Of a DNA stretch of 64,000 bases, positions 1,535 to 61,500 are shown piece after piece. Each line of letters begins with the position of its first letter. Position 1 is the first letter of the stretch. Under the pieces are notes generated by a model, which made no database searches, had not been told where the DNA came from, and saw nothing but the letters and a program-made list of their open reading frames with translations. Made by a program: the position numbers and the translations under genes. Source of the stretch: Bacteroidaceae bacterium (lineage in GTDB: Bacteria; Bacteroidota; Bacteroidia; Bacteroidales; Bacteroidaceae); NCBI GenBank assembly GCA_017524545.1, contig JAFXVN010000085.1, positions 25,084 to 89,083 of the forward strand, in the 5' to 3' direction.

Positions 1535-3427
1535 TTAGCCCTGCTCTATTTCGCTAAGCTCAAGCCAGCGCATGGATTTCTCGTCGAGGAGGTTGACAAC
1601 GACAGGCAGGCGTTTGCTCTTGTCGATGATTTCCTGCGTCGAGAGGGTACCGCTGCTGAGGGCTGCCTCTATGTCTGCCTTCTCGCTCTCCAGTTCCTCT
1701 ATTTCCTTCTCCAAAGCCTGGAACTCCTGCTTTTCGCGGAAGGACATCTTGCGCTTGCGGCCAGCCCCCTCCCCGCTCCCTCTTTGGGGGAGTGCTTTTT
1801 TCTTTTCTTCACTACACTCAATCTTTGGGGCACTCCCCAAAAGGGGGAGCGGGGAGGGGGCTGCCCTGTACTGCGTGTAGTTGCCCGGAAAGTCCTTCAC
1901 CTCGCCATCGCCCTTGAAGACGAAGAGGTGGTCAACCACCTTGTCCATGAAGTAGCGGTCGTGGCTGATGATGATGACACACCCTTTGAAATCGTGCAGA
2001 TATTGCTCCAGTATCTGGAGGGAAGTGATGTCGAGGTCGTTGGTCGGCTCGTCGAGGACAAGGAAGTTGGGGCTTTGCATGAGCACCGTGCAGAGATAGA
2101 GCCGACGCTTTTCGCCGCCCGACAGCTTGTAGATGTAATTCTGCTGCTGCTTGGGCGAGAACATGAAGTGCTGGAGGAACTGCATGGCCGAAAGCCGCTG
2201 CCCGCCACCGAGGTCAACATATTCTGCCGTTTTGCGGACAGCATCAATGACCTTCATCTGCTCGTCGAACTGCATCCCCTCCTGGCTGTAATAACCGAAG
2301 CGGACTGTCTCGCCTACAACGAAACGTCCGCTGTCGGGCTTGACCAGTCCGAGCAGCATCTTGACGAAGGTGCTCTTGCCCGTGCCGTTGTTGCCGACGA
2401 TGCCCAGCTTCTCGTAGCGCGAAAAGTTGTAGTAGAAATCCTTGAGCAGAACGTGGTCGCCGTAGGCCTTGCTCACATACTCCGCCTCGAATATCTTGCT
2501 GCCGATGTAGGCGGACTTCATCTGAAGCTTCACCTGCTGCTCCTCGATGCGGCGGTGTGCCTGCTTCTCCAATTCGTAGAATGCTTCTTCGCGATAGCGG
2601 GCCTTATGACCGCGAGCCTGTGGCATCCGGCGCATCCAGTCGAGCTCCGTGCGGTAGAGGTTTGTGGCCCTTGCCACCTCTGCACGCGCCACTTCCAGAC
2701 GCTGGGCACGCTGCTCGAGGTAGTAGGCATAGTTGCCGTGATAGGTATAGACGGTCTCATCGTCCAGCTCGAGGATGACGGAGCAGACGCGGTCGAGGAA
2801 GTAGCGGTCGTGTGTCACCATGAGCAGGGTGACGTTGGAGCGCGAGAGGTAGTTCTCGAGCCACTCAATCATTTGCAGGTCAAGGTGGTTGGTCGGCTCG
2901 TCGAGGATGAGCAGGTCTGGCTCCATGATGAGCGTATTGGCGAGTGCCACACGCTTCAACTGTCCGCCCGACAGCTGCGAGAGCGGCTTGTCGAACTCTG
3001 AAATATAGAGCTGCGAAAGGATGGTCTTGGCGCGGTTCTCGTAGTCCCATGCCTTCTGCTGCTCCATGCGGTCGAGGATGCTCTGCAAACCTTCCTGGCT
3101 CGCAGAGGCCATGCAGGTCTCATACTCACGGATGAGGTTCGTCGTCTCGTTGCCGTGCCAGAAGCAAGCCTCGATAACGGTTAGGTCGAGGGGATAGTTC
3201 GGCGTCTGTTCCAGATAGCCGATGCGCAGGTCGTTACGAAAGACAACCTGCCCCTCGTCGGCTTGGTCGGCACCGCTCAAGATGTTAAGCAGTGTGCTTT
3301 TGCCCGTGCCATTCTTAGCGATGAGACCCACTTTCTGCCCTTCGCCTATGCTGAACGAGAGGTCGGAGAAAAGCGTCTTGTCCCCTACGCTGCGCGTCAG
3401 ATTCTGTACCTGTAAGTATGAAACCAC
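1535..3427 (-). CDS. ABC-F family ATPase
   Basis: A 630-residue soluble protein with two ABC ATPase domains in tandem and no membrane segments, as in the ABC-F family, which acts on ribosomes or in translation quality control. Domain 1 has Walker A GKNGTGKSTLL, signature LSGGQLKRVALA and Walker B LLILDEPTNHLD; domain 2 has GNNGTGKST, LSGGEKRRLYL and FLVLDEPTNDLD. An ABC_tran_Xtn-like linker joins them and a coiled-coil follows near the C-terminus. The stretch encoded by 1763-1862, just before the coiled coil, is a palindromic repeat read through in frame (about 33 residues rich in P, L, G, S), absent from usual homologues. Uup- and YdiF-like members are equally possible; the exact subfamily is not resolved. 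Confidence 0.93.
   Translation of the reverse strand: MVSYLQVQNLTRSVGDKTLFSDLSFSIGEGQKVGLIAKNGTGKSTLLNILSGADQADEGQVVFRNDLRIGYLEQTPNYPLDLTVIEACFWHGNETTNLIREYETCMASASQEGLQSILDRMEQQKAWDYENRAKTILSQLYISEFDKPLSQLSGGQLKRVALANTLIMEPDLLILDEPTNHLDLQMIEWLENYLSRSNVTLLMVTHDRYFLDRVCSVILELDDETVYTYHGNYAYYLEQRAQRLEVARAEVARATNLYRTELDWMRRMPQARGHKARYREEAFYELEKQAHRRIEEQQVKLQMKSAYIGSKIFEAEYVSKAYGDHVLLKDFYYNFSRYEKLGIVGNNGTGKSTFVKMLLGLVKPDSGRFVVGETVRFGYYSQEGMQFDEQMKVIDAVRKTAEYVDLGGGQRLSAMQFLQHFMFSPKQQQNYIYKLSGGEKRRLYLCTVLMQSPNFLVLDEPTNDLDITSLQILEQYLHDFKGCVIIISHDRYFMDKVVDHLFVFKGDGEVKDFPGNYTQYRAAPSPLPLLGSAPKIECSEEKKKALPQRGSGEGAGRKRKMSFREKQEFQALEKEIEELESEKADIEAALSSGTLSTQEIIDKSKRLPVVVNLLDEKSMRWLELSEIEQG
1763..1862. repeat. 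Palindromic element inside the ABC-F coding sequence
   Basis: The two ends of this 100 bp stretch (1763-1795 and 1830-1862) are 33-nt inverted repeats with about three mismatches, built on AGCCCCCTCCCCGCTCCC. The element is in frame with the gene and sits in the linker before the C-terminal coiled coil. Similar G/C-run palindromes lie inside several other genes of the window. Confidence 0.85.
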
Positions 3428-3489
3428 TTCCTTATTTACTATTTGACGATTTACAATTTACGATTTGACAATTTGCTCCTTTTCGCGTA

Positions 3490-58500: not shown

Positions 58501-61500
58501 CGGAAATGAAGCCTTTCTTCCTCAAACTTTCCTTCGTGCATGAGCAATGCCGAGACACCAAGATGGTGTTGGAAGCGCGCTTCGTAAGGCACTTCCATGA
58601 GCATCGCCTCGTCGGAGAGATGCAGCAAGGTGTCGCGCACAATGCCATTCTCGCCAGTGACGATGCAGTAAATCCATGCGTCGGGCAATGTCGTGCCTAT
58701 CTGGAAACGTGCAGGCTTCTCGGCAGAAATGGTGTCGCAAGGCGTGTAGAGCCACAGGTCGTGCTTGCCAATGAGACGCTTGTCGGTAATGGAGAAGATG
58801 GTGAAGCTCGCTTTGAAGGAGGCGGTGTCATTCATTGACCGTTGACCATTGACCATTGACCATTGACCTCCTGATTTTGCCACAAGGTCATACTGACCGG
58901 AAGGCAGGGTGCGGAGCATTTCGGGAATCGTGTCGCGGTTTGCAGGAATGAGGAAGTTCTTTACTTCCTTGCCGTCCTGCAAAAGCATACAAAGCACATC
59001 GCCCTGCACGGGCTTGTCATTGCTTGAATAAAGGTCGAAGCGCCACGGCTTCAAAGCCTCGCGGTTCTGCTGTTCCGGCACACTGCCCCTCATGCGGAGC
59101 GGTGTGCTGCAAAGCGGCACACGGATGCTGCCCTGTTGCGTCTCGCCTTCGGAACTAAGTACATCCACGGAGAGTTGAAGCGTCTGTCCCCAACGCAAGT
59201 CTTCCTTCGTGAGTTCCTTCGACACGGGAACGCGGATGCTGAAACGCCCTTCGTCGTCTGTATAAAGCGTGTCGATGTCGTGCGACGTGCTTGGGCTGAT
59301 TCGCTTCCACCACCAGCTTTGCGTCCATTGATACGTTCCTGTGACACGCGCGCGGGCAACCGGCCACTGGCTATACGTCAAGGCCCGGCCCGTCAAGGTT
59401 ATGCTATCGACAGGAAGCGTGACAGCCGGAGCCTGGTCCATCTCGACTTGGAAGGTGGGACGGCGATACTCTTCGACACGGATGTAGTGGTAATTGTCGT
59501 CAAGCCGAATCTGGTAGCTGCCCGGCAAACCTGTTTCGGGCAATTGCAGGCTGTCCGCCAGGGTGCCGAACTCGTCGGTATTCAAGGTATGTTCTATGAT
59601 TTCCTGACCATTCGCATCGATAAGCGTGAGCTTCAAGTCGGTTCTTTTCTCAACCTTTGGTGCTTCGCCGTGCTGCCAACAGTAGGCAAAGCCACCCACA
59701 TAGACCGTTTGTCCCGGACGATAGATGCTGCGGTCGGTATAGACATTGATGCGATGATGGAGGTCTTCGTCCTTGGTGTATTTATAGCGCCATCCCAAAC
59801 TATGTTTCCCGAAAGCCTTGTCTTCACCTCGCGAAAGCTCAACATACAGATTCCTTTTATTGTCGTCAAAAGTTGCCTCGACAATGCCTCGGCTGTCAGT
59901 TGTCTGTTCCTCAAGCTTCGTGTATGTCTTACTTTCCTTATTGTAGAACACGACTTTCACCCCTTGTTGCGGTTCGCCGCTCATCGCGTCCATTACCATA
60001 ACGCGCCGCTTGCCGTCGGGCAAAGTGATATTCATAAAGGTGAGGGCAGAGGCATCGAATAGGACGGAGACCGAAGACCCCTCCAGACCTCCCCTTAAAG
60101 GGGAGTTAGAGAGGCTCTTTTCTTTTGTCGTGCCTTCGAGGACAAAAGCATAGCGCCCGAAGCCCGGCGAATGCCAGCGCAACGTGTCGTTTTTCTCTTC
60201 GAGAGCCTCAACGCCTTCCATTGAAATGGGCGAGGTCTCAATGAGCGTACCGTTTGCGCGTACCTGCTCAAGCTTCGTCCCAGCCACTTCTTCCTCGTCG
60301 AACTCAAAGCCAAGCGGCAGACGATAGACAGCAATGCTGCCCGACTGCATGTTCTTAATCTGCAAGGGGATGTCGTAATCCTTGTTCGGATAGCACATCT
60401 CGTTGAAGCGTGCCGAAAGCCTCGGTGCCCGAAGCTCCGCGATGCGGTTCTTCAGTTCATTTGCCTGCCGACTCTTCGGATAACGCCGCAACGCCTCTTC
60501 CAGCAGGTCTTGCTGCTCCTGATTCGTCTTGCCGGGCTGCTTGGCAAGCAACATATAGACATCAGCACAAGCATCCAAGTCGATATATTCATCACGAAGG
60601 CGGAGCAAGGACCCCTCTAAATCTCCCCTTAAAGGGGAGACTTCCTGCCCAGTGTTCTCCCCCTTTAAGGGGGAGTTAGGGAGGGTCTTTGCTTCTTCAA
60701 GCGAGTCAATTTGCAGCAGCAAAGCCGCTTCTCTCTGTCCGTGCCTGCGGTAAACGTCGATGATGTCCGTGTAATGCGGGAAGAGGCCCTTCTCCGCTGT
60801 TGAGCAATCCTCCTTGAAAGTCTGCCAGATGAGATAGAGCAAGTCGCCGTCGAAGATGCCGTCGTCCTTGCCAGACTCTGCCAAAGGCTTTATGTTTGCC
60901 ACTTTGCAACGGTGCAAGGCATCTGGATCCTGCATTGCCTGGGCATAGAGTTTTGTGGCATATTTTTGATATTCCTGAATGCCCCACTCCTGTATGCTGT
61001 CGGGATGGCTTGAGGTCTTGCGGCCGTAGCCTTGCGAACGCCACCGGTTCTGGCATAGGACGTGCGCCATCGCAGCACGGTATATGGCCTGAGCCGTCGG
61101 GTCTTTCTCGGCAAGCATCTCGGCTTTGAGCTGCCGCCAGTCATAGAAGAAGCTGTCGGGGGTGATGTCCTCGCGTTTCTGATTCTCTTTCAAGACCTCC
61201 GCCAGCCGCTTGGCCGCCTTTTGGGTTGCCTTGCTCCGCTGCTTGTCGCTTTGCAGGATGCCTTGCCATACGGCTCGCTGCAAATCGCCCGCCTCGTTGT
61301 CGTCGGCATATTCCCAGTACATCGCGCCCCTCAAGCCTTGCTTCCTGATGTAGGCACACTTCGCAGCAATGGAACGCGGACTCTCGTAGCCCATCGCCAA
61401 TACATCATCCCCTTCGACAAAGAACGGTGCCTTCGACTTGTTGCTCCAATACTCCCGAAGGTCACGCTTGCCAGCATCGGACTCGTCGGAGATTTCAGCA

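Follow-up and report, generated by a model that had tools for sequence, protein, structure and literature searches.

Palindromic repeats that are read through as peptide are known, for example, from Rickettsia. The Rickettsia palindromic elements (RPEs) lie in frame in unrelated protein genes and form several families, and PMC10969869 gives the agent that moves them as unknown (Ogata et al., 2000, 2002, as cited in PMC10969869 and PMC3733652). In-frame fusions are also summarised in PMC10969869 for the miniature inverted-repeat transposable elements (MITEs) of prokaryotes. Intragenic repetitive extragenic palindromes (REPs) and REP dimers that encode 20-30 residues are described from Opitutus terrae (with uvrA as a host), Thauera, Xanthomonas and others, and at roughly one and the same position in recB the REPs of two Xanthomonas species differ; that paper also assigns the R. 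conorii RPEs to the CGTC-type repeats and places most REPs between genes (PMC3733652). Here we analyze G/C-run palindromes that lie within protein-coding genes of a Bacteroidaceae bacterium, starting from a stretch of 64,000 nucleotides (contig JAFXVN010000085.1, positions 25,084 to 89,083; the window). Our data make it likely that these palindromes are short, copy-spreading and apparently translated repeats that work like the RPEs.

The likeness to RPEs is one of arrangement. Here, too, in-frame palindromic repeats sit in unrelated protein genes, but the carriers belong to another phylum (Bacteroidota, not Rickettsia), the units have a GACC head and form two-unit pairs, many hosts are single-copy genes for essential enzymes, and unrelated repeat families occupy one and the same loop. 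With the intragenic REPs they share short in-gene repeats, a uvrA host and different repeats at one site, whereas REPs bear a GTAG or CGTC tag and lie mostly between genes, in contrast to the GACC heads and the 39 genic clusters out of 66 found here. Neither REP tag was found at the unit ends, which were located by the GACC head, other tags not being sought afresh. REP doublets that form hairpins (REPINs) and bacterial interspersed mosaic elements (BIMEs) are inverted REP pairs. Two short hairpin units inverted around a short spacer are the rule here as well, but the subfamilies combine freely (A-B, A-D, D-E; see below) and no link to a REP-associated tyrosine transposase (RAYT) was found. MITEs are similarly short, with terminal inverted repeats and many copies; unlike them, the units show no target duplication, and no autonomous parent element was found in a search limited to Y1 transposases. 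A search of open papers turned up no account of palindromes lying in frame in genes of Bacteroidales; two papers deal with Bacteroidetes TnpA subclasses and with intergenic MITEs of Porphyromonas (PMC6006769, PMC5771137). What is unusual is the extent of the phenomenon, the essential hosts, a triplet signature in the spacers, and loops that are common to unrelated repeat families.

Unit structure, copy number and reading frame

All units follow one plan, an (A)GACC-type head, a few bases, and then a hairpin with C-run and G-run arms, in 27-31 nt. We distinguish types A (GACCCCTCTAAATCTCCCCTTAAAGGGGAGA), B (GACCCTCTCTAACTCCCCCTTAAAGGGGGAG, with a variant B2), C (AGCCCCCTCCCCGCTCCCCCTTTGGGGGAG), D (GACCCACCCC.ACCCTCCCTTAAAGGGAGGG) and E. 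The GACC-type head by which 165 unit ends were located is preceded by A in 138 and by G in 26. In the commonest form, two inverted units flank a short variable spacer, for a total of about 80 bp. Read in the host gene, a forward B unit gives TLSNSPLKGE and a reverse A unit SPLRGDLEGS. Single-strand folding is strong for three pairs (z -4.2, -5.2 and -9.8) and unremarkable for three single units (z -1.7 to -0.5). A 200-bp nested palindrome with 79-nt arms, which contains C-like and E-like pieces and adjoins coding sequence, was seen at L007:2376-2577.

In the window, a search that allowed up to 3 mismatches to the core pattern CTCCCCTTAAAGGGGAG gave 12 matches, which fall at 9 distinct places (3 places match on both strands), against a mean of 0.17 and a maximum of 2 in 100 shuffles. 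The source genome, a 3.6-Mb draft of 85 contigs, has 36 exact core places and, when as many as 2 mismatches are allowed, 54 distinct ones; the reversed control pattern has none. We examined the surroundings of 52 of the 54 places (all but C71:5840 and C76:36742) for clusters of A-E units, and also those of 48 loci with an exact A unit from 13 other metagenome-assembled genomes (MAGs), assigned to Prevotellaceae, Bacteroidaceae or Bacteroidales and in several cases from ruminant stomachs. All genomes compared are drafts. The coding test traces a codon-usage score outward to a stop, and a cluster counts as open when both sides share strand and phase and no stop lies across it; an earlier version with 150-bp flanks was dropped, as it missed most sites in the GH18/A2M gene of the window. 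Without two clusters at contig edges and L043, a duplicate of L011, the source genome yields 66 classified clusters, 39 in an open frame, 24 with coding sequence on one side, 2 with flanks in different phases and 1 with none. The other MAGs, without six edge clusters and one duplicate, yield 67, of which 43 are open and 18 one-sided; in 2 the flanks differ in phase, 2 lie between opposite strands, 1 has a stop and 1 has no coding flank.

This count, which the first-pass annotation had proposed, puts 39/66 and 43/67 clusters in frame, and no genic copy clearly breaks a frame. Five apparent frame-breakers (four with flanks in different phases and one with a stop) all lie between two open reading frames (ORFs), as judged by ORF ends rather than by homology; three of them provide the last residues of the upstream ORF and two overlap the start of the downstream one. 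The frame is preserved in every resolvable genic case. When 3000 stretches of 75 bp were drawn at random from the same DNA, 54.9% scored as open coding, so the repeats show no depletion in genes. By the same test, most of the genome's other inverted repeats, which have periods of 7-12 nt, lie outside coding sequence. Copies that are scattered at random, blind to frame and mostly intergenic are not what was found.

A simulation of random insertion, in which about 10% of copies were in frame and open, was set aside because its result varies with the assumed end of the element, and we relied instead on the spacers between units, for which no such assumption is needed. In genic A-B pairs the spacer is 10, 16, 22, 25, 28, 31 or 52 nt long and equals 1 modulo 3 in 30/30 cases; in other A-B pairs it is 11, 15, 16, 19, 38 or 48 nt long and equals 1 modulo 3 in 6/10 (p 0.0023), with the reservations that openness across the element helped to define the genic pairs and that orthologous copies were counted repeatedly. 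Without the commonest length, 16, the figures are 13/13 genic versus 1/5 other pairs (p 0.0016). A-D spacers are divisible by 3 in 14/15 genic versus 3/6 other pairs.

The hosts are conserved enzymes; outside the window, 30/30 ORFs have a Pfam family at 1e-5. They include alanyl-tRNA synthetase (AlaS), LytB/IspH, UvrA (two elements), PrmA, QueA (two), adenylosuccinate lyase, an RNase R-type RNB protein, threonine synthase, phosphoglycerate mutase, a class-V aminotransferase, a pyridine nucleotide-disulphide oxidoreductase, the glycogen debranching enzyme, glycosidases, transporters, outer-membrane receptors and others. Enzymes such as AlaS and IspH are known to be essential and are presumably so here. 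The AlaS insert lies just beyond the solved catalytic fragments, the longest matches to which stop at residues 446-456 of 901, and in IspH, where the best solved structure matches two stretches, the insert falls between them.

The core is uncommon across the order. It occurs in 12/295 genomes of the order, including the source genome; outside the genus, 11/294 genomes have it at one mismatch, in 1 to 9 places each. One genome from another family (G124) has nine core matches and an A-like unit. All six loci examined outside the genus scored as non-coding with the codon table of the source genome.

Empty sites, shared loops and differing unit orders

Comparison of the same genes in relatives, also proposed at the outset, revealed empty or short sites in A2M, MATE, AlaS and IspH, with presence varying among close relatives; an ancient domain, with the same insertions in all orthologues, is not seen. 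Among 17 A2M orthologues (66-75% identity), the loop at residue 718 has 15-16 residues in 15/17 (24 in our sequence), that at 1885 has 14 in 9/13 covering orthologues (22), that at 528 has 22-26 in 13/15 covering orthologues (43), and that at 1722 has 33-35 in 13/13, compared with 40 in our sequence, though the pair there encodes 28. Repeat-like text, judged by peptide, is found at 528 in L048, L055 and L059, at 718 in L055 and L059, at 1885 in L050, L055, L059 and L065, and at 2121 in L051; the 1722 loop of L055 holds a heptamer array. The MATE site is empty in three relatives.

In AlaS, 24/29 genus orthologues (aligned best loci from 61 genomes searched) are short, and five have long inserts other than A/B. 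Four of these are inverted pairs of heptamer arrays, which fall into three sorts (L229 and L239; L231; L242), and the fifth, in L254, is a further G/C-run pair. The A/B pair is present in L081 and L100, loci chosen by their A unit. In IspH, 17/20 aligned orthologues are short, L263 has a heptamer pair, and L258 and L259 have short repeat-like text. The heptamer-array pairs of both proteins are in frame and unrelated to the A/B units. Filled sites are without some host residues (about 7 in IspH and about 11 in AlaS), so loss of the old loop accompanied or followed insertion.

From genome to genome, the units within a loop also differ in order. The AlaS loop has B-A in L019, L081 and L100 and A-B in L076 and L087; a PLD-domain protein has B-A and A-D, an RNB protein D-E, B2-A and B-A, and QueA several orders. 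Same-type B or D units are identical at 220/226 positions versus 1938/2339 in flanking coding DNA (8 comparisons, two of them AlaS), and over all 15 same-type pairs at 417/427 versus 3690/4427. A units were excluded from this count because A is the search pattern. The better preservation of the units is a sign that they may have been refreshed or recently copied, short of proof given that the loci were picked by a well-kept A unit.

Palindromes and other repeats of the window

The first-pass annotation had reported palindromes in ABC-F, MATE and trmO and at eight sites or more in GH18/A2M, in frame and adding peptide text. This observation is confirmed: a palindrome is present at each place, and each falls within the open frame of its host gene (Table 1). 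The GH18/A2M ORF (55536-62255, minus strand) runs stop-free over 2239 aa. Some details need correction. The trmO palindrome and the ABC-F pair come from sequence families other than the core, the trmO unit standing outside types A-E altogether. Of the eight A2M sites, those near 56018 and 56112 are degenerate, and only a loose pattern detected them. The trmO repeat lengthens the protein by only about 1 residue compared with one relative and by about 7 compared with two others. Both full copies, which are A/B pairs, measure 84 bp, as had been noted, when three flanking bases per side are included; from GACC to GGTC they measure 78 bp. The ABC-F linker has other repeat-like text in the sole relative compared (L158).

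Table 1. Palindromes and related repeats inside genes of the window (ORF coordinates in brackets)
Feature	Position	Strand	Peptide or remark
C-type inverted pair in ABC-F (ORF 1535-3427)	1763..1866	-	APSPLPLLGSAPK...LPQRGSGEGAG; linker before C-terminal domain
Palindrome of another G/C-run family in trmO (ORF 34859-35596)	35074..35110	-	SLTPDPSPKGEGRTE
Single B-type unit in MATE (ORF 35672-37009)	36293..36333	-	Missing from three relatives
Single B2 unit in GH18/A2M	55875..55909	-	TLSNSPLKREN; coding test one-sided although ORF continues through
Degenerate palindrome in GH18/A2M	56005..56045	-	SSPLGGDRGGL; related text in some relatives, none in others
Degenerate palindrome in GH18/A2M	56104..56132	-	KPSPKREMEGAF
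Single C unit in GH18/A2M	56183..56216	-	SPLPAPPLGEGS
Single B2 unit in GH18/A2M	56583..56617	-	ETLSNSPLKGED; loop short in 9/13 covering relatives
Full A/B pair, 84 bp, in GH18/A2M	57025..57108	-	KTLSHSPLKGEDSGKEASPLRGGLEGSS
Heptamer array (GGTCAAT-type) in GH18/A2M	58830..58871	-	In frame, no inverted partner; about residues 1129-1142
Double-headed single unit in GH18/A2M	60075..60118	-	KSLSNSPLRGGLEGSS; loop short in 15/17 relatives
Full A/B pair, 84 bp, in GH18/A2M	60607..60690	-	AKTLPNSPLKGENTGQEVSPLRGDLEGS

The A2M heptamer array is common to L046, L047, L055 and L065 and does not occur in the other 13 relatives aligned. Several further repeats were seen in the window, which has no Rfam match at gathering cut-offs. 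ACGGATT-type tandem units form inverted pairs with a 25-38 nt spacer at 24917-25003, 41856-41938, 45873-45961 and 21387-21464; they are partially conserved between copies, and none scored inside a coding frame. Heptamer-like tandem arrays lead straight into a TTTCGTACCTTTGCA-like box at 3566-3612, 7709-7755, 16583-16629 and 26903-26949, a box that we take to resemble the Bacteroidetes -7 promoter element. A 22-nt unit, CGTGCCTCGTTGACCAATTAGG, is repeated three times in tandem between genes at 1430-1499, and 21643-23417 and 46064-47557 are diverged duplicate blocks with segments that are 73-89% identical.

Probable spread of the repeats and competing explanations

Together, the copies in and outside genes across the genome, the empty sites in orthologues and the kept frame speak for the earlier suggestion of a mobile or copy-spreading element that is able to live inside genes. 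Copies would land both in genes and between genes. A genic copy would survive only with its peptide in a tolerant loop or linker and with the frame open, so that those seen would lengthen their hosts by about 13-45 residues (typically TLSNSPLKGE...SPLRGDLEGS). The spacer would then drift freely outside genes and change in threes inside them. At a given site, units may in the course of time be swapped, flipped or renewed, possibly through recombination or re-insertion via the conserved hairpins. Translation into protein, the transposition step and the exchange step are what we infer from the patterns above.

Several points weigh against this reading. Movement is deduced from presence and absence between species. 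Neither target duplication nor extended flank symmetry exceeds that of shuffled partners in 65 pairs. B precedes A in the coding direction in 27/30 genic A-B pairs; among 25 pairs that are open on both strands, 22 are B-first where 12.3 are expected from the open frames, and A-D pairs lean the same way (10/13 versus 6.8 expected, p 0.10). This bias is not accounted for by simple random insertion. Among the 42 one-sided clusters, 14 meet a stop in the element and 28 stay open (11 of them for at least 50 codons), so that broken genes could hide there, even if the in-frame A2M unit at 55878 is also counted in this class. The loci from other genomes were selected for an exact A unit. Finally, no transposase is tied to the units.

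This last point bears on the possibility that the repeats are classical REPs mobilized by a RAYT, that is, by a Y1 transposase, which deserves consideration although we find it doubtful. It would fit the REPIN-like inverted pairs, the several Y1-type genes in the source genome, and the missing target duplication; transposition via single-stranded DNA is expected to leave none. An A-E unit lies somewhere in 7 of 68 Y1 loci (L043 and L198 being the same place), and a looser scan finds G/C-run hairpins of other types no more than a few hundred bases from the Y1 gene in a few more loci, such as L226 (near 1349-1365) and L136 (near 2034-2055), from G059 and G076. However, in none of the 68 loci (66 distinct; flanks of about 1.5 kb, some shortened by contig ends) is the Y1 gene bracketed by A-E units, and at L043, where the Y1 gene is nearest to an A/B pair, the two closest orthologues (L199 and L200) have no adjoining A-E unit. 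The short Y1 genes of L129, L134 and L138 have another hairpin, CCCAGGGC...GCCCTGGG, on either side, in what looks like a classical REP/RAYT arrangement distinct from A-E, and the heads of our units are GACC rather than GTAG or CGTC. Nor does Y1 presence track repeat number over 101 genus genomes, the draft state of which limits the test: PF01797 occurs in 7/16 repeat-rich genomes (at least 8 forward core matches) versus 34/85 others, and P0002 homologues in 11/16 versus 50/85 (Fisher p 0.79 and 0.58).

The shared AlaS and IspH loops invite a bolder and quite speculative extension. Certain loops might receive stem-loop DNA again and again, whatever its sequence. Structure would guide the insertion of unrelated inverted-repeat families (G/C-run and heptamer-array pairs), and part of the old loop would be replaced; later swaps and flips of units, by recombination between genomic copies, would create a shared pool of frame-compatible loop cassettes that diversifies housekeeping proteins.

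The same loops make it improbable that the peptides are flexible linkers or functional loops selected and multiplied for their benefit to proteins, the other origin that had been put forward. In-gene copies do use few peptide forms and sit in loops or linkers, and the B-first orientation exceeds the open-frame share. However, unrelated repeat families occupy the same loops, orthologues manage without an insert, and the same units are found between genes, which speaks against a linker role as the cause, although an insert may come to serve as a linker afterwards. That the insert is removed or skipped after transcription, in the manner of an intron, an intein or translational bypassing, is very unlikely: the strong hairpins of the pairs would suit it, but frame and stop-free reading are kept and genic spacers vary in threes. 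An ancient shared domain or an assembly artefact can practically be dismissed, since presence varies between close relatives, empty sites contradict it, the same insert occurs in independent assemblies and shuffles give 0.17 matches, even though some sites are common to several species (AlaS in L019, L081 and L100) and all genomes are drafts.

Copy-spreading repeats that are read as part of proteins would be of interest beyond this genome. So far, coding palindromes have been an oddity known from Rickettsia and from a few genomes rich in REPs. In this lineage of rumen bacteria, for which many species have been sequenced, dozens of genic copies occur together with sites that are empty, sites that several species share, differing orders of units and copies between genes. 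This makes it possible to test whether the repeats are translated, how often they move, which enzyme mobilizes them, and whether new protein loops regularly arise from selfish repeats. The lineage is therefore a good setting for asking how selfish DNA lives inside working proteins.

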